A stretch of 56,672 bases of DNA from NCBI GenBank assembly GCA_947630485.1, contig CANRHU010000013.1, positions 1-56,672 on the forward strand, read 5' to 3'. Shown here piece after piece: positions 2,539 to 9,642 of the stretch. Made by a program: the position numbers and the translations under genes. Below the pieces are notes generated by a model, which worked only from the letters and a program-made list of their open reading frames with translations, did not search any database and was not told the DNA's origin. Every line of letters starts with the position of its first letter. The first letter of the stretch is position 1. Source of the stretch: an uncultured Lachnospiraceae bacterium. GTDB taxonomy: Bacteria; Bacillota; Clostridia; Lachnospirales; Lachnospiraceae.

Positions 2539-2853
2539 ATGAAAAGGAGCGTTTTGGCAATTTTACTCACTGGCTTGCTGACGGTTTCTATGTTGGCGGG
2601 CTGCGGCGGCTCTGGCAGCTCGGCGGAATCGCAAGCTCCCGCAGAGAAAGATACGTCCGGCGCTCCCAAGGCTCTGGGTTTCTGCTATGAGTCTTTCGGA
2701 ATTATTGTAAACAAGAAGCTGCTTGAGCAGGCCGGCCATAGCTTGGATGAGATCAAGGATTTTGATTCCCTGAAGGCAGTAGAGGATGATATTCATGCCC
2801 GCGCAGGTGAGATGGGCTTTGACGTTTTCTCTGCTCCCTTACCTGGTGCTTGA
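2539..2853 (+). pseudogene. Sugar ABC transporter substrate-binding lipoprotein, internally deleted
   Basis: The frame encodes 104 residues; full binding proteins of this family have about 400-450. The first part is an intact lipoprotein signal (MKRSVLAILLTG, then LAGC) with a Gly/Ser linker. It then jumps at about residue 44 into a segment that reads like the middle of a family 1 sugar-binding protein (GFCYESFGIIVNKKLLEQAG then IKDFDSLK), and it stops soon after. So the signal peptide and an internal piece have been joined by a deletion and the C-terminal portion is missing. No transporter permease genes follow. A promoter and a LacI-type operator remain intact upstream, so a short exported peptide could still be made. 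Confidence 0.7.
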
Positions 2854-2875
2854 CCACACCAAATGCAGCTTTCCT

Positions 2876-3075
2876 GAAATGAAAAAAGTGGAGGAGCTTG
2901 GCTTTAAGCCCAATAACCACGCCCGGAGCTTAAAGCAGCATGTCAGCAGCGGTTACAGCATGATTGTCAGGGGCGACGGGAACCTGCTGTTTGCCGGGAT
3001 TATAGAGGGTTGAGAAATTTGAGAAGCAGCGGTGTGTTGATGTCCTGATACATCCCATATGGAAACTCTGCGTAT
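2876..3075 (+). pseudogene. LacI-family transcriptional regulator fragment, frameshifted
   Basis: The frame reading KKVEELGFKPNNHARSLK followed by MIVRGDGNLLFAGIIEG matches the end of the LacI DNA-binding domain, the hinge and the first strand and helix of the effector domain. It then hits TGA at 3011-3013. Shifting frame just there continues the family pattern as EKFEKQRCVDVLIHP, so a one-base change has disrupted the gene. Neither the helix-turn-helix start nor the ligand-binding remainder is present. It is most likely the ruin of the regulator that used the upstream operator palindrome. The right boundary is approximate. Confidence 0.6.
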
Positions 3076-3098: not shown

Positions 3099-6000
3099 AT
3101 GGCCAATCTTACTCTTGGCATCGTCGCCCATGTCGATGCCGGCAAGACAACGCTTTCCGAAGCGATTCTTTATCAGACCGGAACCATCCGCCGCCTGGGA
3201 CGGGTGGATACCCGCGACGCCTTTTTGGATACATATGCCCTTGAACGTGCCCGGGGGATCACGATTTTTTCCAAACAGGCTGTTTTTGATTTGGGGAATA
3301 CCCGGGTTACACTTCTGGATACTCCCGGCCATGTGGATTTCTCTGCTGAGATGGAGCGGACGCTCCAGGTTCTTGACTGCGCGGTGCTTGTGATCAGCGG
3401 CGCGGACGGTGTTCAGGGACATACCGAGACGCTCTGGAATCTGCTTAGGCGCTACCGTGTGCCGACGTTTCTTTTTGTAAATAAAATGGATCAGCCGGGG
3501 ACAGATTGGAAGGCGGTGCTGGAAGATCTGAGACGGCGTCTGGGGGACGGATGTGTTCCTTTTAACGGACTGTCGGAAGCGCGCACTCCGAAAATGGCAG
3601 GTATTCGGAAGTCAGCAGCCGGAGGCGGGGCGTTTGGGGACGGAAGCGTGATAGTACCGGTTCAGCGGAAGCAGTGGGAGTCCTCCGTGCTTTCGGATAT
3701 CGCGGGGCATGGGAGCCAGGCATTGGAAGAACTCGCCATGTGCGATGAAGCGGTTTTGGAGAATTATTTGGAACATGATATCATAACGGGCAGTGATGTC
3801 CGCCAGATGATTGCAGCCCGCAAGGTTTTTCCCTGCTATTTCGGATCGGCGCTAAAGCTTTGGGGCGTGGAAGAATTGCTGCAGGGGCTTGAGAATTTTG
3901 GAAGCGGGATGGCGCTGGCGGGCGGCGCGGAGAAAGACCCGCGGCTCTCCCGGCAGTTTGGAGCCCGCGTTTTCAAAATTTCCCGTGACGATCAAGGCAG
4001 CCGTCTGACACATTTGAAGGTAACAAGCGGCGTCCTGCGGGTGAAAGATACGCTTCCGGCAGCATCTGATATGGCTGATCCGGCCGGTGAGAAGGTGAAT
4101 CAGATTCGTATCTATTCCGGCGCAAAGTATGAGACGGTGAATGAGGCGGGTCCAGGGACTGTCTGCGCTGTGACAGGTCCGACGTCTACCTATGCCGGGC
4201 AGGCTTTGGGGGACGAGGCGGCCCGCGGATATGAGGAACCGGTGCTGGAGCCGGTTCTTACCTATCAGATTATTCTTCCGCCCGGAAGCGATGTTCATGC
4301 CATGCTGACAAAGCTCCGTCAGCTGGAAGAAGAAGAGCCGATGCTGCGTATCGCCTGGAATGAATCTCTGAGTGAAATTCAGGCTCAGGTTATGGGACCG
4401 GTGCAGCTTGAGGTGTTAAAAAGCCTGGTGAAAGATCGCTTCGGTGTCGAAGTGGAATTTGGAACGGGACATATTGTATATAAGGAGACGATTACGGCCC
4501 GTGTGGAGGGCGTTGGTCATTATGAGCCGCTGCGCCATTATGCGGAGGTTCACCTTCTTCTGGAGCCTGCGCCGCGCGGCAGCGGGCTGACTTTTGCGAC
4601 CGTCTGCAGCACGGATGTGCTGGATTTGAACTGGCAGCGCCTGATTCTGACCCATCTGGAGGAAAAGCGCCATATCGGCGTTTTGACTGGTGCGCCGATT
4701 GCGGATATGAAGATTACGCTTTTGGTGGGACGAGCCCATTTAAAGCATACGGAAGGCGGGGATTTCCGCCAGGCCACCTATCGGGCTGTGCGTCACGGAC
4801 TGATGCAGGCGCTGGCGGCGGGGAGTTATCAGCTTTTGGAGCCGTATTACCGATTCCGGCTGGAGGTTCCGATGGAGTCTGCCGGTCATGCGCTCTCTGA
4901 CCTCGAGCGCATGCATGCCCGATTCTCAGGCCCGGAAATGGATGGGGATATCGCCGTTATTACCGGTGAAGCGCCGGTCGCTTCCATGGGAAATTATCAG
5001 ATGGAGACGGCATCGTACACGAAAGGGCGGGGCAGGCTCCATTGCAGCGTGAAAGGGTATGAGCCGTGCCACAATACGGAGGAAGTTGTGCAGGCTATCG
5101 GTTACGATCCGGAGCAGGATTTGGAGAATCCCTGCGGCTCCGTGTTTTGTGCCCATGGAGCAGGTTTCCTGGTGGGATGGCGCGAAGTGAAATCCTATAT
5201 GCATTTGGAAAGTCCCATTGATCTGGCTGTCCGCAGAATGCATGCGGACGGAGAGAGCGGGATACAGAAAATCGCAGTGCAGAAAATCGCGATGCAGCCC
5301 GGTGCGGATGCGATTCGTGCAGATACGGTCAGCGCGAATGCCAAAGGAGGCGCGGACCTTCAAAAAAACGCAGAAGCTCAGAACGCGGTCAAGCCCCGGC
5401 CTGTTTCTGCCGCATCTGCGCCATGGGGCGCTGAGGATAAAGAGTTAGAAGCAATTTTTACCCGCACTTATGGGGAACCGAAACGCCGGCTTCCGGCTGA
5501 GACAAACGAACGCCGGGTCATTTACGGGCAGAAGAAGGCGGAGAAGGAGGCTGCCTCGCTGCCGGAAGAATATCTTCTGGTGGACGGCTACAATATAATC
5601 TATGCCTGGCCGGATCTTCATGAACTGGCGGAGGCTACCATTGACGGCGCCAGACAGCGGCTCATGGATATCCTGTGTAATTACCAGGGATATACGGGAT
5701 GCATTCTGATTTTGGTATTTGACGCATATAAAGTGGAGGGAGGCCTGGGACAGGCTATCCGATATCACAATATTAATGTTGTCTATACGAAGGAGGCGGA
5801 GACCGCGGATCAGTATATCGAGAAGCTGGCTCATCAGATGGGGCGTGAGCATCAGGTTACCGTGGCTACTTCCGATGGGTTGGAGCAGCTGATTATTCGC
5901 GGTCAGGGCTGCCGGCTGATGTCCGCTAAGGATCTGCGGGAGGCTGTGGACTACGTCAATGAACAGATACGAAGCCAGCATCTGCAGCAGTTTCCGGACC

Positions 6001-6113
6001 GCAATGGCAATTATCTCTTAAGTCATGCGGAAGGCGAACTGCGGGAATATCTGGAAGAAGTGAGACTTGGAAAAGAGGGAGAATATCATGGCAGAGCAAC
6101 TGACAAAAAGTGA
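3099..6113 (+). CDS. Tet(M)-like translational GTPase fused to a YacP/Rae1-type NYN nuclease domain
   Basis: The 1004-residue product has two parts. Residues 1 to about 710 follow the Tet(M)/EF-G plan: AHVDAGKTTL (P-loop), RARGIT (switch I), DTPGHVDF (switch II), VNKMDQ (guanine site), then domains II-V. After a variable linker, residues about 822-960 form a NYN/PIN-like domain (EYLLVDGYNIIYAW, LVFDAYKVEGG, ETADQYIEKL, VATSDGLEQL), the fold of YacP, known in Bacillus subtilis as the ribosome-dependent mRNA endonuclease Rae1. At the tip of domain IV, where Tet(M) has a Ser-Pro-Val loop before ADFR, this protein reads HLKHTEGGDFR, so a tetracycline-resistance role is doubtful. GGAG lies 8 bases before ATG 3099. 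The end overlaps greA by 26 bases. Likely job: binding the ribosomal A site and cutting mRNA there (inference). Confidence 0.88.
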   Translation: MANLTLGIVAHVDAGKTTLSEAILYQTGTIRRLGRVDTRDAFLDTYALERARGITIFSKQAVFDLGNTRVTLLDTPGHVDFSAEMERTLQVLDCAVLVISGADGVQGHTETLWNLLRRYRVPTFLFVNKMDQPGTDWKAVLEDLRRRLGDGCVPFNGLSEARTPKMAGIRKSAAGGGAFGDGSVIVPVQRKQWESSVLSDIAGHGSQALEELAMCDEAVLENYLEHDIITGSDVRQMIAARKVFPCYFGSALKLWGVEELLQGLENFGSGMALAGGAEKDPRLSRQFGARVFKISRDDQGSRLTHLKVTSGVLRVKDTLPAASDMADPAGEKVNQIRIYSGAKYETVNEAGPGTVCAVTGPTSTYAGQALGDEAARGYEEPVLEPVLTYQIILPPGSDVHAMLTKLRQLEEEEPMLRIAWNESLSEIQAQVMGPVQLEVLKSLVKDRFGVEVEFGTGHIVYKETITARVEGVGHYEPLRHYAEVHLLLEPAPRGSGLTFATVCSTDVLDLNWQRLILTHLEEKRHIGVLTGAPIADMKITLLVGRAHLKHTEGGDFRQATYRAVRHGLMQALAAGSYQLLEPYYRFRLEVPMESAGHALSDLERMHARFSGPEMDGDIAVITGEAPVASMGNYQMETASYTKGRGRLHCSVKGYEPCHNTEEVVQAIGYDPEQDLENPCGSVFCAHGAGFLVGWREVKSYMHLESPIDLAVRRMHADGESGIQKIAVQKIAMQPGADAIRADTVSANAKGGADLQKNAEAQNAVKPRPVSAASAPWGAEDKELEAIFTRTYGEPKRRLPAETNERRVIYGQKKAEKEAASLPEEYLLVDGYNIIYAWPDLHELAEATIDGARQRLMDILCNYQGYTGCILILVFDAYKVEGGLGQAIRYHNINVVYTKEAETADQYIEKLAHQMGREHQVTVATSDGLEQLIIRGQGCRLMSAKDLREAVDYVNEQIRSQHLQQFPDRNGNYLLSHAEGELREYLEEVRLGKEGEYHGRATDKK

Positions 6114-6591
6114 TGTGGAAAAGATTGAGGAAGAGATCCGTTACCGGAAACTCGTGGTCCGCAAGGAGGCTTTGGAGGCGGTCAAGGAAGCCCGTGCCCA
6201 TGGCGATCTGAGCGAGAATTTTGAATATCATGCGGCGAAAAAGGATAAGAATCAGAATGAGAGCCGTATCCGTTATCTGGAGAGAATGTTGAAGACTGCC
6301 CAGATTGTATCCGACGAGTCGAAGGATGATGAGGTGGGCATCAATAATACGGTGGAGCTTTATATGGAAGACGATGACGAGGTGGAGACCTACCGTCTTG
6401 TCACTTCCATCCGCGGCAGTTCGCTTAGAGGGCTTATCAGCACGGAATCTCCATTAGGCAAGGCGATCCTGGGAAGAAAGCTGGGGGATCGCGTGTATGT
6501 TCAGGTTAATGAGAATGCCGGATATTATGTGGAGATCCGTTCCATCGATAAGTCTACAGGCGACGAGGACGACCGGATCCGCAGTTTCTGA
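6088..6591 (+). CDS. greA: Transcription elongation factor GreA
   Basis: GreA enters the secondary channel of RNA polymerase and stimulates cleavage of backtracked transcripts. The 167-residue product has the N-terminal coiled coil with the tip motif ARAHGDLSENFEYHAAKK (acidic D and E beside the catalytic tip) and a C-terminal FKBP-like domain (SPLGKAILGRKLGDRVYV). ATG 6088 is preferred over an in-frame ATG at 6067 because AGAGGGAG lies just upstream at 6074-6081 and the shorter form matches the family N-terminus. The gene starts within the last codons of the GTPase-NYN fusion, in another frame, so the two share a transcript. The C-terminal half is somewhat divergent from well-studied GreA proteins. 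Confidence 0.9.
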   Translation: MAEQLTKSDVEKIEEEIRYRKLVVRKEALEAVKEARAHGDLSENFEYHAAKKDKNQNESRIRYLERMLKTAQIVSDESKDDEVGINNTVELYMEDDDEVETYRLVTSIRGSSLRGLISTESPLGKAILGRKLGDRVYVQVNENAGYYVEIRSIDKSTGDEDDRIRSF

Positions 6592-6674: not shown

Positions 6675-6995
6675 CTATCGGACGCCTTTCATCTTGCCTT
6701 CGGAGTTTACATAATAATTATCGATCCATTTGTCTTTTGCCAAAACTCCGTTTTCATCGAAATAATACCAGGAGCCTTTTAATTTAAACCAACCGGTCTT
6801 TCGGTCGCCGTCTTCATCAAGGTAATAAGTTTTCTCGCCGTCTTCTATCCAACCGGTAAGGCTTTCGCCCTTATCATCTACATAGGTCCAGGTTTTATCT
6901 TCGTGCTCCGTCCATGTCCCGGCGTAAGCCGGCACAGCGGGGGTAAGCGCTATCAGAAAGGAAATCACGACTGCAAGTACACGTATTCGATTCAT
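6675..6995 (-). CDS. Small exported wall-binding repeat protein
   Basis: The 106-residue product starts with a signal peptide (basic start, hydrophobic core, cleavage near AYAG). The remainder is about four aromatic repeats of the choline-/cell-wall-binding type: WTYVDDKGESLTGWIEDGEK, YYLDEDGDRKTGWFKLKG, WYYFDENGVLAKDKWI, YYVNSEGKM. These repeats stack into a beta-solenoid that binds wall glycans or teichoic acid choline. There is no catalytic domain, so it is likely a wall-attached structural or adaptor protein. AAGGAGG precedes the start on the minus strand. It resembles the larger repeat protein at 8105-9496 and may be its paralogue. Confidence 0.8.
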   Translation of the reverse strand: MNRIRVLAVVISFLIALTPAVPAYAGTWTEHEDKTWTYVDDKGESLTGWIEDGEKTYYLDEDGDRKTGWFKLKGSWYYFDENGVLAKDKWIDNYYVNSEGKMKGVR

Positions 6996-7026
6996 TCGTA
7001 CAGCCTCCTTCCTTTTAATTGGCTAC

Positions 7027-7055
7027 ATTATAGCATAGTCCTTAGTGTTTGACCA
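7027..7055 (-). promoter_or_regulatory. Promoter of the small wall-binding protein gene
   Basis: On the minus strand TGGTCA (7050-7055) and a perfect TATAAT (7027-7032) are 17 bases apart. It sits about 30 bases before the start codon of the gene ending at 6675. Confidence 0.65.
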
Positions 7056-7256
7056 GCGAAAAAGCCACGCAAAATCTTACGATTTTCAGACGAGATTCTT
7101 ACTAAAAATATTTCGACAAAATCTGCCGCTGATCGCATGAAAAACAATTCCAGAAGTGGTATTTGAGGGTGTAACGGGGGGGTATATTTTGTGGTTGAAT
7201 CGTTTGAAAGAGTCAGGGGAGAACCCCTGGGTGTCGAAATGTGCGAGCAAAAGCTC

Positions 7257-7285
7257 TTTTCAAAAATTTTAAAATGTTCTATATT
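7257..7285 (+). promoter_or_regulatory. Probable promoter of the 47-residue coiled-coil gene
   Basis: TTTTCA (7257-7262) and TATATT (7280-7285) are spaced by 17 bases and lie about 30 bases upstream of the GTG start at 7317. The match is moderate. Confidence 0.45.
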
Positions 7286-7316
7286 GATAGGCAGGAACCA
7301 GAAAGGGGGGAACCAA

Positions 7317-7460
7317 GTGGCCGACGAGGAGAAAATGGTTATTCTGGAAGAGGAGAATCGCAGACTGAAGGAAGATAACGATAAACTGCTGGAGATTGTG
7401 GTACAGATGCGGGTGACGTTGAATCGCCTGGTTCTCCGGTATGTCACGGAGGATTGCTGA
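7317..7460 (+). CDS. Short coiled-coil protein (47 residues)
   Basis: GTG 7317 is chosen because AAAGGGGGG at 7302-7310 is an ideal ribosome-binding site; extending the frame leftward runs into AT-rich non-coding sequence. The whole product is a charged amphipathic helix (LEEENRRLKEDNDKLLEIVV, then QMRVTLNRLVLRYV) with leucines and hydrophobics at heptad positions, so it should dimerise or pair with another coiled coil. No membrane segment or signal is present. It converges on a gene at 7554-7949 whose product also ends in a coiled coil with similar wording, so the two could interact (inference). Family and function are unknown. Confidence 0.6.
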   Translation: MADEEKMVILEEENRRLKEDNDKLLEIVVQMRVTLNRLVLRYVTEDC

Positions 7461-7528
7461 AAGCAGTCTGCACCTCAAATTGCTGGTAGAAAAGAACCGG
7501 CCGAGAGCGGTTGTCGGTGATCCGAAAG

Positions 7529-7564
7529 AAAATGCGTAGGGAAAAATGTTTCCCTACGCATTTT
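7529..7564. terminator. Bidirectional intrinsic terminator
   Basis: Arms 7529-7544 and 7549-7564 form a perfect 16-base-pair stem (AAAATGCGTAGGGAAA and its complement) with a 4-base loop. Flanking A and T runs serve both convergent genes. The stop codon of the minus-strand gene lies inside the stem. Confidence 0.85.
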
Positions 7565-7949
7565 CCATTTTCTTCAGCCGGCTTTCCAATTCCCGGGTTT
7601 GACGCAGCTGTTCCCAGATTGTTTTATGCATCCAATCGACGGTTTGGTTCAGCTTTTGGTTTTCCTCTGTCAGGCGGGATATTTCCTGCGTGAGCCTGCC
7701 GACGAGTTCCCGCTGGTCGTAAAGTTTGGCGGGTTCGCAGATCCGTTGAACCAGAGTAGGAGTCATTTCAATGATTTTGAGGGAAATAAGCCGATCCCGC
7801 TCCTCGTAATCCAGATTCATGAAGTCCTGATAACGGATATCCAGAGGCGTCAGTTTGACGTGGCACCGATGACAGACGGCGTTCCTGGGCAGTTGAAAAT
7901 AGGCGTAATATCCGCATTTCTGGCAAAAGTACACTGATAGCTCTCTCAT
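7554..7949 (-). CDS. Zinc-ribbon plus coiled-coil protein
   Basis: The chosen start is ATG at 7949 (minus strand), giving 131 residues beginning MRELSVYFCQKCGYYAYF; upstream sequence in frame looks non-coding and AGAGGA sits at a usable distance. Residues 9-35 hold CQKC and CHRC, a four-cysteine zinc knuckle. The middle has a conserved-looking LDYEERDRLISLKIIE segment. The last 60 residues are a long coiled coil (LTEENQKLNQTVDWMHKTIW, LRQTRELESRLKK). No membrane anchor is present, so it should be cytoplasmic. The pairing of a zinc knuckle with a coiled coil suggests nucleic-acid or protein binding. I do not recognise a named family. Confidence 0.65.
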   Translation of the reverse strand: MRELSVYFCQKCGYYAYFQLPRNAVCHRCHVKLTPLDIRYQDFMNLDYEERDRLISLKIIEMTPTLVQRICEPAKLYDQRELVGRLTQEISRLTEENQKLNQTVDWMHKTIWEQLRQTRELESRLKKMENA

Positions 7950-8028
7950 CTTATCAAGTCCTCTAAGCATAAATATTCTGTATATATGCATAAACGCAAG
8001 AAAACACATTTTGTAACATAATTTTATG

Positions 8029-8062
8029 AAAAAAACTGCCAGAATATTCCTATTCTGGCAGT
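8029..8062 (-). terminator. Intrinsic terminator of the large wall-binding protein gene
   Basis: Arms 8035-8046 and 8051-8062 (ACTGCCAGAATA and its complement) form a perfect 12-base-pair stem with the loop TTCC. On the minus strand it is followed by a run of T (seen as the A run at 8029-8035). Confidence 0.85.
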
Positions 8063-8104
8063 GAAACGGGTTCTGTCTTTTGTAAAGGTTCACGCGTTCT
8101 GCGC

Positions 8105-9496
8105 TTATTGGACGATACCGTTTACGTCCACGGTCCACACGGTATCGTTGGCGTCGCGGACATCCCGGTAACCGGCGCCCAAATCCTCACGGGCCGCGGA
8201 TTTGGAGGTGGCGGTTGCCTTCTGGATGGTTCCGGATGCGTTGACCAGATATTTTTGACCTTCAAAGGTTACCGGCGCGTAGCGCAGGTCGCTGTCGGCG
8301 TCCAGGCGCAGACCGTGGTCATAAATTGCGTTTCCGCGGATACCGTGGAAGCCCTGACCGCGGTTTGAACCTTCCGTCTGGAAGAACCAGCTTTGGGTCA
8401 TCTCGGTGTCGTCGTTGAAAATCGTCTGCTTTCCGGTTTTCATGGCGCCGTTCTCTCCAAAATAGTAGTTGGCGGTGGAACCGTCGTCCAGCGTGACGAC
8501 AGTGAGTCCGGTCTGCATTTCGCCCTTATCATTAAACGCATAGCGGTCGGAACCGATACCGAATACCTGGATGCCGCCATTGGAGGCGAAATGGGGAACG
8601 CCGCTCTTGAAATAGAACCGGTAGGTTTCGTCTTCCGCGCTGACGCCTGGAATGCCGGTGATCGTCATCCAGCCGGAAGCACGGCGTCCGCTTTCTTCAT
8701 AGTACTGATAGCCGGCAGCCGGAGAGGCGGGCTTGGCGTCGGACTTGGCGGTAGCCGCTTCGGCTTCCTGGGCTGCTTCGCTTTCTGCGGCGGCAGAGGC
8801 CTCGGAGTCTGCGGTTTCTTCCGGATCGGCCGTTTCCGGCAGCTGATACCAGCCGGTAATCATGACGCCGTCCACAAATGTATAGTAACCGCCGTTGATC
8901 TTCTTATCCAGCTGGTTTTCGATTCGTTTGCCGTGGCTGTCAAAGTAGGACCATACCATTTCGTCATTGAATTCATCTTTTTGAGTCGGCAGCTGCAGCC
9001 AGCCTTTCACCATTGCGCCGCTTGGAGAGAAATAGTAGTTGGCGCCGTCGATTTCCCTCAGCCCTACTGCCATCCGGCCTTCTTCATCGAAATAGTAAGT
9101 GGCGTTGTCGATGTCCTTAAACTTGGATACGACCATTTTGCCGTTGCTTCCATAATAGAACCAGTCGATCTCCGGTGCGTCTTCATCCCAGATGTTTTCA
9201 TTTGCGACGGAGACCCATTGGTCGGCGGCCTGCTTGCCTTCGCCGTCCACATAGTAATCGTCGATCTGGCGGTTCAGCGCCAGGTTGCCGTTTTCATCCA
9301 GATAGTACCAGTAATCGCCGGATTTCTTCCAGGCATCTGTCAGGCAGTACCCGTCAGCGTCGTAGAATTTCCAGGTTCCGTTCTCCTGCACCCAGCCAGT
9401 CTCCTGTGCCCATACGTTGGCGGTGAATGCGGGAACCATAGCGGTCATAACTGCTGCCGCGGAAAGTGCGGCTGTCCATTTGATGCTCTTTTTCAT
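8105..9496 (-). CDS. Exported cell-wall-binding repeat protein
   Basis: The product has 463 residues from ATG 9496, with AAAGGAG 11 bases upstream; a GTG at 9508 is too close to that site. A signal peptide (MKKSIKWTAALSAAAVMTAM, cleavage after VWA) is followed by about ten aromatic repeats of the choline-/glucan-binding type (for example GTWKFYDADGYCLTDAW, YWYYLDENGNLA, TYYFDEEGRMAVG, NYYFSPSGAMVKGWLQLP). An Ala/Glu-rich spacer interrupts them near residues 225-265. There is no recognisable enzyme domain. The later repeats are irregular and spaced by longer beta-rich segments, as in many clostridial surface proteins. It probably decorates the wall polysaccharide whose genes follow on the opposite strand (inference). 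Confidence 0.85.
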   Translation of the reverse strand: MKKSIKWTAALSAAAVMTAMVPAFTANVWAQETGWVQENGTWKFYDADGYCLTDAWKKSGDYWYYLDENGNLALNRQIDDYYVDGEGKQAADQWVSVANENIWDEDAPEIDWFYYGSNGKMVVSKFKDIDNATYYFDEEGRMAVGLREIDGANYYFSPSGAMVKGWLQLPTQKDEFNDEMVWSYFDSHGKRIENQLDKKINGGYYTFVDGVMITGWYQLPETADPEETADSEASAAAESEAAQEAEAATAKSDAKPASPAAGYQYYEESGRRASGWMTITGIPGVSAEDETYRFYFKSGVPHFASNGGIQVFGIGSDRYAFNDKGEMQTGLTVVTLDDGSTANYYFGENGAMKTGKQTIFNDDTEMTQSWFFQTEGSNRGQGFHGIRGNAIYDHGLRLDADSDLRYAPVTFEGQKYLVNASGTIQKATATSKSAAREDLGAGYRDVRDANDTVWTVDVNGIVQ

Positions 9497-9642
9497 AAAA
9501 ATATACACTCCTTTATTGATTGACCTTGAATCCAGTTCTGCATTACGGTCAGATTATATACCATACGGGCAGCCCCTGAAAAGTGCAGGTTGATGGAAGA
9601 AAGAGAAGGAATGAACAGAATAGGATAGAACTAGAAAAATGC

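Follow-up and report, generated by a model that had tools for sequence, protein, structure and literature searches.

A KHTEGG-type translational GTPase fused to a Rae1/YacP-type nuclease domain in Lachnospiraceae and other Clostridia

A gene that joins an EF-G-like translational GTPase to a nuclease domain of the Rae1/YacP type was identified in a 56,672-nucleotide stretch of DNA (hereafter, the window) from an uncultured Lachnospiraceae bacterium (GenBank assembly GCA_947630485.1, contig CANRHU010000013.1). It comprises one unbroken open reading frame (ORF) that starts with ATG (window positions 3099-6113, forward strand) and encodes a protein of 1004 amino acids (aa). The GTPase carries the residues KHTEGG at the tip of its domain IV and, by analogy with the families to which its two parts belong, may bring the nuclease to ribosomes whose A site is accessible, so that messenger RNA (mRNA) is cleaved in a translation-dependent manner, a reading to which we assign roughly even odds (about 0.5). 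Atkinson 2015 (PMC4342817) reports that 'Tet proteins' from ten Clostridiales species bear NYN domains and proposes a resistance mechanism based on a ribonuclease (RNase). The fusion architecture has therefore been in print since 2015, and no other account of the fusion came up in our literature searches, which largely missed subscription papers. The additions made here, drawn from sequence comparisons, are the placement of the GTPase outside of the Tet proteins, the split homologs and a tree that includes them, the spread of the fusion, the apparent relocation of the nuclease from the rlmB cluster, and a conserved motif in the linker.

Domain architecture and conservation

All five motifs of the G domain (AHVDAGKTT, RGITI, DTPGHVDF, NKMD, and GSALK; G1-G5) are intact in alignments and domains II through V score above their Pfam cut-offs (Table 1), which places the window protein among EF-G-like translational GTPases. 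The C-terminal domain belongs to the Rae1/YacP family, with a NYN_YacP Pfam score of 170.7 bits (cut-off 24.6), and the NYN part alone matches the Bacillus subtilis YacP structures 5mq8 and 5mq9 at an E-value of ~3e-27. The ORF and the Pfam domains confirm what an initial annotation of the window had claimed, namely that a single gene unites an EF-G/Tet-type GTPase with a YacP-like NYN domain. The residue ranges that it gave for the two parts (1-710 and 820-960) were roughly right, except that the NYN domain extends to residue ~989.

Table 1. Features of the fusion gene and its downstream neighbor.
Feature	Residues	Window positions	Strand	Evidence or remark
Whole gene: KHTEGG-type translational GTPase and YacP/Rae1-type NYN nuclease		3099..6113	+	ORF, Pfam, relatives
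GTPase (G) domain, GTP_EFTU	4-265	3108..3893	+	Pfam, 174.5 bits (cut-off 26.5)
EF-G domain II, EF-G_D2	287-370	3957..4208	+	Pfam
EF-G domain III, EFG_III	384-455	4248..4463	+	Pfam
EF-G domain IV, EFG_IV	458-571	4470..4811	+	Pfam
Domain IV tip, GRAHLKHTEGGDF	544-556 (KHTEGG, 549-554)	4728..4766 (KHTEGG, 4743-4760)	+	Alignment
EF-G domain V, EFG_C	578-659	4830..5075	+	Pfam
GTPase C-terminal extension, SVFCAHGAGF...W..V..YMH	660-704	5076..5210	+	Alignments
Variable linker	705-825	5211..5573	+	Alignment, dN/dS
Conserved short linker motif, EDKELEAIFTRTYGEPKR	779-796	5433..5486	+	Alignment, pattern search
NYN_YacP (Rae1-type) domain; acids D829, D875, D904, D926	826-989	5574..6065	+	Pfam, alignments
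greA, neighbor outside the system		6088..6591	+	26-base overlap with the 3' end of the fusion if ATG 6088 is the start

At least 581 stretches related to the window protein were detected and the best 80 of these were kept. The main alignment comprised all 80 relatives and the window protein (81 rows), and a smaller alignment (A1) comprised 55 of the 80 and the window protein. Each of the 80 relatives is encoded in a frame of 886-1105 aa, which indicates that the fusion is not an assembly artifact. Residues 549-557 (KHTEGGDFR), G544, and H547 are invariant in the 81 rows, as are D829, D875, E901, D904, and D926, with E899 present in 79 of 81. The GTP-binding motifs are as well kept as the tip and the acidic residues, and the linker consists mostly of gaps. 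Ratios of nonsynonymous to synonymous substitution rates (dN/dS), which are rough since the 14 closest fused pairs share members and several have high dS, were 0.025-0.068 for the NYN domain and 0.052-0.145 for the GTPase, with the NYN value below the GTPase value in 13 of the 14 pairs; those of the linker (computable in 13 pairs) were 0.142-0.364. The low ratios and the invariant residues at both ends indicate that the GTPase and the NYN domain are each under purifying selection. With motifs kept and selection acting on both, the two parts look functional.

The linker contains a short motif that resembles ED-KELE-IF-RTYG--KR. A strict pattern for it matched 74 of the 81 proteins (best 80 and window), and the motif is altered in six others and apparently lost in one (L061). 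It lies 34-70 residues ahead of the NYN start and 29-130 residues beyond the GTPase end. Among seven fused frames that are strongly diverged or otherwise odd, the motif or a variant was identified in four (L252, L253, L242, and L176) and was not found by the same pattern in three (L179, L175, and L180).

The NYN domains of 94 fused proteins were compared, residue by residue, with 65 separate YacP sequences, which comprised 25 taken from among the best-scoring, and therefore consensus-like, and 40 added later. D829, D875, D904, and D926 are present in all 94 fused and all 65 separate sequences, and E899 and E901, both present in the window protein, occur in 90 and 85 of the 94 fused sequences, respectively. 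We take these acidic residues to be catalytic, as in NYN/PIN nucleases; their absence would, according to the initial annotation, have refuted its reading, and all are present and conserved. The fusion thus shares the NYN domain and the catalytic acids with B. subtilis Rae1/YacP, which is a small separate protein (181 residues in the PDB chain) rather than a C-terminal domain of a GTPase. Positions 921 and 940, in contrast, have drifted in the fused domains. Arginine is found at position 940 in 65/65 separate YacP and 44/94 fused sequences, while position 921 is threonine in 87/94 fused sequences and, among the 65 separate ones, arginine in 42 and threonine in 11. The median net charge of the NYN domain is -4 when fused compared to -1 when separate. 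Basic residues of separate YacP have hence been partly given up in the fused domains, as would be expected if docking has become the task of the GTPase. We infer from these sequences that the fused NYN domain may have a relaxed need for the docking of Rae1 itself, an interpretation that is partly confounded by descent.

Relationship of the GTPase to EF-G and Tet proteins

Tet proteins displace the drug with a Ser-Pro-Val loop at their domain IV tip. The tip columns read GRAHLKHTEGGDF in the window protein, GLYYSPVSTPADF in Tet(M), Tet(O), Tet(W), and Tet(S), and GSYHEVDSSEMAF in the EF-G of the same genome. Where the window protein has its KHTEGG tip, the four Tet proteins carry an SPVSTPADF-type sequence, and the columns of their Ser-Pro-Val are occupied by LKH, which bears out the initial view that the tip lacks the loop of Tet(M). 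H547 aligns with the tip histidine of EF-G. This column and the domain layout are shared with EF-G, from which the fusion differs in its extra C-terminal parts. With Tet(M)/Tet(O) the fusion shares the five-domain EF-G-like GTPase and the residues DFR after the tip, yet it has its own C-terminal extension and NYN domain and lacks the Ser-Pro-Val tip.

The closest full-length NCBIfam model for the window protein is tet_protect, which it matches at 417.6 bits and thus below the cut-off of 775. When ten proteins were scanned with this model, Tet(M) (878.1 bits) and a tet-like protein from the order of the window (L173; 964.2 bits) passed, and eight KHTEGG-type proteins, both fused and stand-alone, scored 380-468. 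The window GTPase is 27-29% identical to Tet(M)/Tet(O). GTPase trees were constructed with 61 rows, after omission of two truncated stand-alone proteins and one truncated fused protein, and with 77 rows, after omission of seven (those three, two more truncated frames, and two EF-G rows). In both trees the Tet rows formed a clade (99*) separate from that of the KHTEGG rows, and the window protein did not group with the Tet proteins. Together, the tip, the model score, and the trees indicate that the GTPase is not a Tet protein and instead belongs to a separate KHTEGG clade that is related to EF-G and Tet. Tetracycline resistance as the primary reading of the gene was rejected on the basis of the NCBIfam cut-off, the tip sequence, and the tree placement.

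The expectation in the initial annotation that databases would wrongly call such proteins tetracycline resistance proved partly correct. A fused protein of Agathobacter rectalis and stand-alone proteins of Ligilactobacillus salivarius are labeled as TetM/TetW/TetO/TetS family, whereas a fusion from Monoglobus bears the name 'translation factor GTPase family protein' and NCBIfam does not call the window protein tet. The stand-alone GTPase of L. salivarius plasmid pR1 (L193, 4530-6920) adjoins rpsN (S14) and is labeled TetM-family despite a score of 380 bits against the cut-off of 775; several further L. salivarius plasmids carry a stand-alone GTPase of the KHTEGG type. An additional group of Tet-related GTPases (L171 and L172; 31-32% identity) has the tip HKFHTHPLDF and falls outside both the Tet and the KHTEGG clades on both trees.

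Origin, distribution, and genomic setting

Split homologs, for which a search had been proposed in the initial annotation, were found both as stand-alone GTPases and as separate YacP genes. The stand-alone GTPases are ~640-690 aa in length, their ends coincide with the start of the linker in fused proteins, and most have the tip KHT-x-GD, with KHTSGGDF, KHTEPGDF, and QYTDGGDL as variants. The 26 fused rows of the 77-row tree require two changes of state, one gain and one loss, as do the 23 fused rows of the 61-row tree. The loss corresponds to the L. salivarius plasmid gene, which is nested in the fused clade on a long branch, and the branches sister to the fused clade comprise stand-alone genes, some of these belonging to genomes that gave no YacP match. 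A tree of NYN domains, for which every fourth of the fused loci L032-L111 was used, agrees in outline with the GTPase tree and places the stand-alone YacP of one genus (g7) nearest to the fused domains. The simplest account of these observations is a single event that joined a stand-alone KHTEGG GTPase to a Rae1/YacP nuclease.

To describe the distribution of the fusion, we used samples of 295 genomes from the order, 291 from the class, and 299 from the phylum. In the order sample, KHTEGG domains IV/V were detected at an E-value of ≤1e-40 in 121/295 genomes, 83 of which had them in frames of at least 780 aa. Within the family of the window, 42 of 48 genomes encode the fusion (41 long frames and one truncated frame with both matches), with one copy each, as for a core gene; the rest comprise four genomes with separate genes, one with YacP only, and one with neither. 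In the class sample, the GTPase was detected at 1e-40 or better in 122/291 genomes, of which 98 had it in frames of at least 780 aa. All 98 have a YacP match, which for the 87 with listed rows also lies in a long frame, and in four a second match of the YacP type was seen. One of these four (G423; 61% complete) holds two long fused copies (C16 and C48) and is perhaps a mixed assembly. The phylum sample yielded a match at 1e-30 in 21/299 genomes. The fused form is thus present in approximately one-third of sampled class genomes (98/291), a fraction that applies to this sample only. The proteins described in Atkinson 2015 have the same architecture of an EF-G/Tet-like GTPase and a YacP-type NYN domain in Clostridiales; they are filed there as Tet and from ten species, whereas here the GTPase falls outside Tet and the fusion is far more common than in the ten species printed in 2015.

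The source genome (3.26 Mb; 94.8% completeness) encodes no YacP other than the fusion. Six other places in it match the GTPase part at an E-value of ≤1e-10, two at full length with 25-28% identity and EF-G-type tips and four only partially, and so no second KHTEGG-type GTPase and no full-length Tet protein were seen in the genome. A separate EF-G, with 26.5% identity to the window GTPase, is present. According to the available text of PMC6613710, yacO (rlmB) and rae1 are co-transcribed in B. subtilis and mutants behave as one pathway. Among 25 stand-alone YacP loci, an RlmB frame was identified within ~1.4 kb on either side in 18, and none was found in seven. The corresponding cluster of the source genome reads IspF-like frame (identified by eye), cysS, mrnC (ribonuclease III domain), rlmB, and lactate dehydrogenase (ldh), with no yacP among them. 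An rlmB cluster without yacP and a single YacP in the genome suggest that the nuclease was relocated and survives only as a fused domain.

Records labeled as plasmid or viral were also searched. A total of 1377 plasmid records matched at all and two covered >80% of the query, these being plasmid-labeled records with fused copies from Monoglobus (518 kb) and Agathobacter rectalis (252 kb). Two 'Bacteriophage sp.' records (L255 and L256; MT835563.1 and MT835514.1) hold fused homologs. Ten of their neighboring frames were compared with Pfam and eight matched ordinary bacterial types (e.g., FeoB, Glu/Gln-tRNA synthetase, Csp-type protease, and sugar kinase), which suggests that these records are mislabeled bacterial contigs, and the possibility of a phage gene was rejected on this basis. 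Viral contigs yielded 51 loci, among which three longer relatives cover only residues ~1-704 (L257 and L258 at 48%, L288 at 42%); several others are short N-terminal fragments and the rest are at 26-30%, the level of EF-G/Tet. L257 and L258 are stand-alone KHTEGG-type GTPases from two provirus contigs, each positioned right where the contig begins, as though an integration site were adjacent. A role in anti-phage defense was dropped, with no PADLOC match obtained. The fusion is a common chromosomal protein of gut Clostridia.

In the immediate neighborhood, the upstream region (window 2539-3010) appears to hold decayed remnants, a short lipoprotein-like frame that had no Pfam match and, judged by eye, a broken regulator-like stretch. 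Two secreted-looking proteins with cell-wall-binding repeats (Pfam on the smaller only) are encoded downstream (window 6675-9508, reverse strand). No Rfam match for an RNA leader was obtained within the window.

Proposed mechanism and alternatives

In EF-G-like factors, domain IV is the part that reaches into the A site. The initial annotation had suggested a single GTP-dependent machine that cleaves mRNA or rescues stalled ribosomes, an interpretation that is supported in part. In the mechanism that we propose, the GTP-bound GTPase would bind ribosomes with an accessible (paused or stalled) A site, where domain IV with its KHTEGG tip would probe the decoding site. GTP hydrolysis would then let the GTPase go, and the NYN domain, on its linker of ~120 residues, could cut the mRNA once the A site is empty, either there or on a neighboring, collided ribosome. 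Ribosome binding is ascribed here from the EF-G/Tet families, and A-site cleavage from Rae1, an mRNA endonuclease that acts in the ribosomal A site according to the available text of PMC6613710 and PMC12320835; we only infer the order of events and a role in mRNA turnover or rescue. More tentatively, and with odds that we put well short of even, the protein may be a one-chain, GTP-gated system of mRNA quality control, in which a stuck A site is sensed and cleared or probed, tethered Rae1 cuts there or on the collided neighbor, and the ribosomes pass to rescue.

Several observations weigh against delivery of the nuclease by the GTPase. The strongest, which speaks against an obligate machine, is that a stand-alone GTPase occurs without any YacP match in seven class genomes, six of which are at least 95% complete, and this suggests a nuclease-free role for the GTPase; in one of the seven (G522) the GTPase frame is just 293 aa, and an eighth such assembly (G421) is 65% complete and contains a fragment at a contig edge. 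Conversely, 75 class genomes have YacP without a KHTEGG GTPase. By hand count, stand-alone GTPase and YacP occur together in 30 of 32 genomes of the order sample, hardly above the YacP base rate of 256/295, and such co-occurrence was consequently dropped as proof of linkage. The NYN tree is weakly supported and requires the fused state to change three times, and the change at R940 may stem from shared descent only. The neighborhood lends no support either, as a GreA frame occurs within the first three frames downstream at 12 loci (69 loci have >2.5 kb of downstream sequence), and an operon of greA with the fusion is not conserved. Lastly, domain IV and Rae1 cannot share one A site, and as both are proposed to enter it they must act in turn or on neighboring ribosomes, while a fused pair of factors may signify no more than co-regulation.

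The genomes with only one of the two partners are also what would be expected if two independent ribosome factors share one chain, with the fusion providing equal dosage and proximity alone. The GTPase would then have a translation task of its own (e.g., freeing the A site of a tRNA, a stall, or a natural product), and the NYN domain would carry out ordinary Rae1 work. The nested L. salivarius gene, which suggests that the NYN domain can be lost, and the separate genes, which are unlinked (on other contigs or >1 Mb apart) in 29 of 30 order-sample genomes with both places listed, further favor this possibility. However, the fused state was kept in nearly all descendants seen, with only the one loss on the tree, and the strict linker motif is retained in 74 of 81 proteins, which suggests that both halves work together. 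Independence of the two factors is accordingly a possible but somewhat doubtful explanation, whereas for delivery by the GTPase we retain the even odds given above.

Ribosomal protection from tetracycline or another A-site drug, aided by an RNase as proposed in Atkinson 2015, appears improbable. Displacement of tetracycline by the tip loops of Tet proteins is described in the available text of that work (PMC4342817), which files such proteins under Tet, and the TetM-family labels of some NCBI copies, tet_protect as the closest whole-length model, the L. salivarius plasmids with stand-alone genes, and the two plasmid-labeled records with fused copies point in the same direction. In contrast, the score falls short of a cut-off that Tet(M) and L173 pass, LKH stands in place of Ser-Pro-Val in a clade separate from Tet(M/O/W/S), and the single copy in 42 of 48 family genomes resembles that of a core gene; moreover, no common leader was obvious in 17 upstream regions, a weak test given that starts were guessed. 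A function in ribosome assembly or in maturation of ribosomal RNA (rRNA) or transfer RNA, in which the GTPase would check ribosomes and the NYN domain trim rRNA, would suit an older NYN proposal (Anantharaman and Aravind 2006, as cited in the available text of PMC4342817) and the frequent proximity of stand-alone yacP to rlmB, an rRNA methylase gene, yet is likewise very unlikely in view of the A-site mRNA cleavage reported for Rae1 (PMC6613710, PMC12320835).

Resistome surveys should not include KHTEGG GTPases, which some records assign to the TetM family, among tetracycline resistance genes unless a test supports this. On the more tentative quality-control reading, the fusion would represent a rescue nuclease of bacteria that is recruited by a translational GTPase of its own, and the stand-alone KHTEGG GTPases would constitute a separate, undescribed branch of translation factors. 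If nuclease delivery by the GTPase is correct, approximately one-third of sampled class genomes would cut ribosome-bound mRNA via a nuclease with its own docking GTPase, and how Rae1-type nucleases choose ribosomes would become directly testable with one purified protein.

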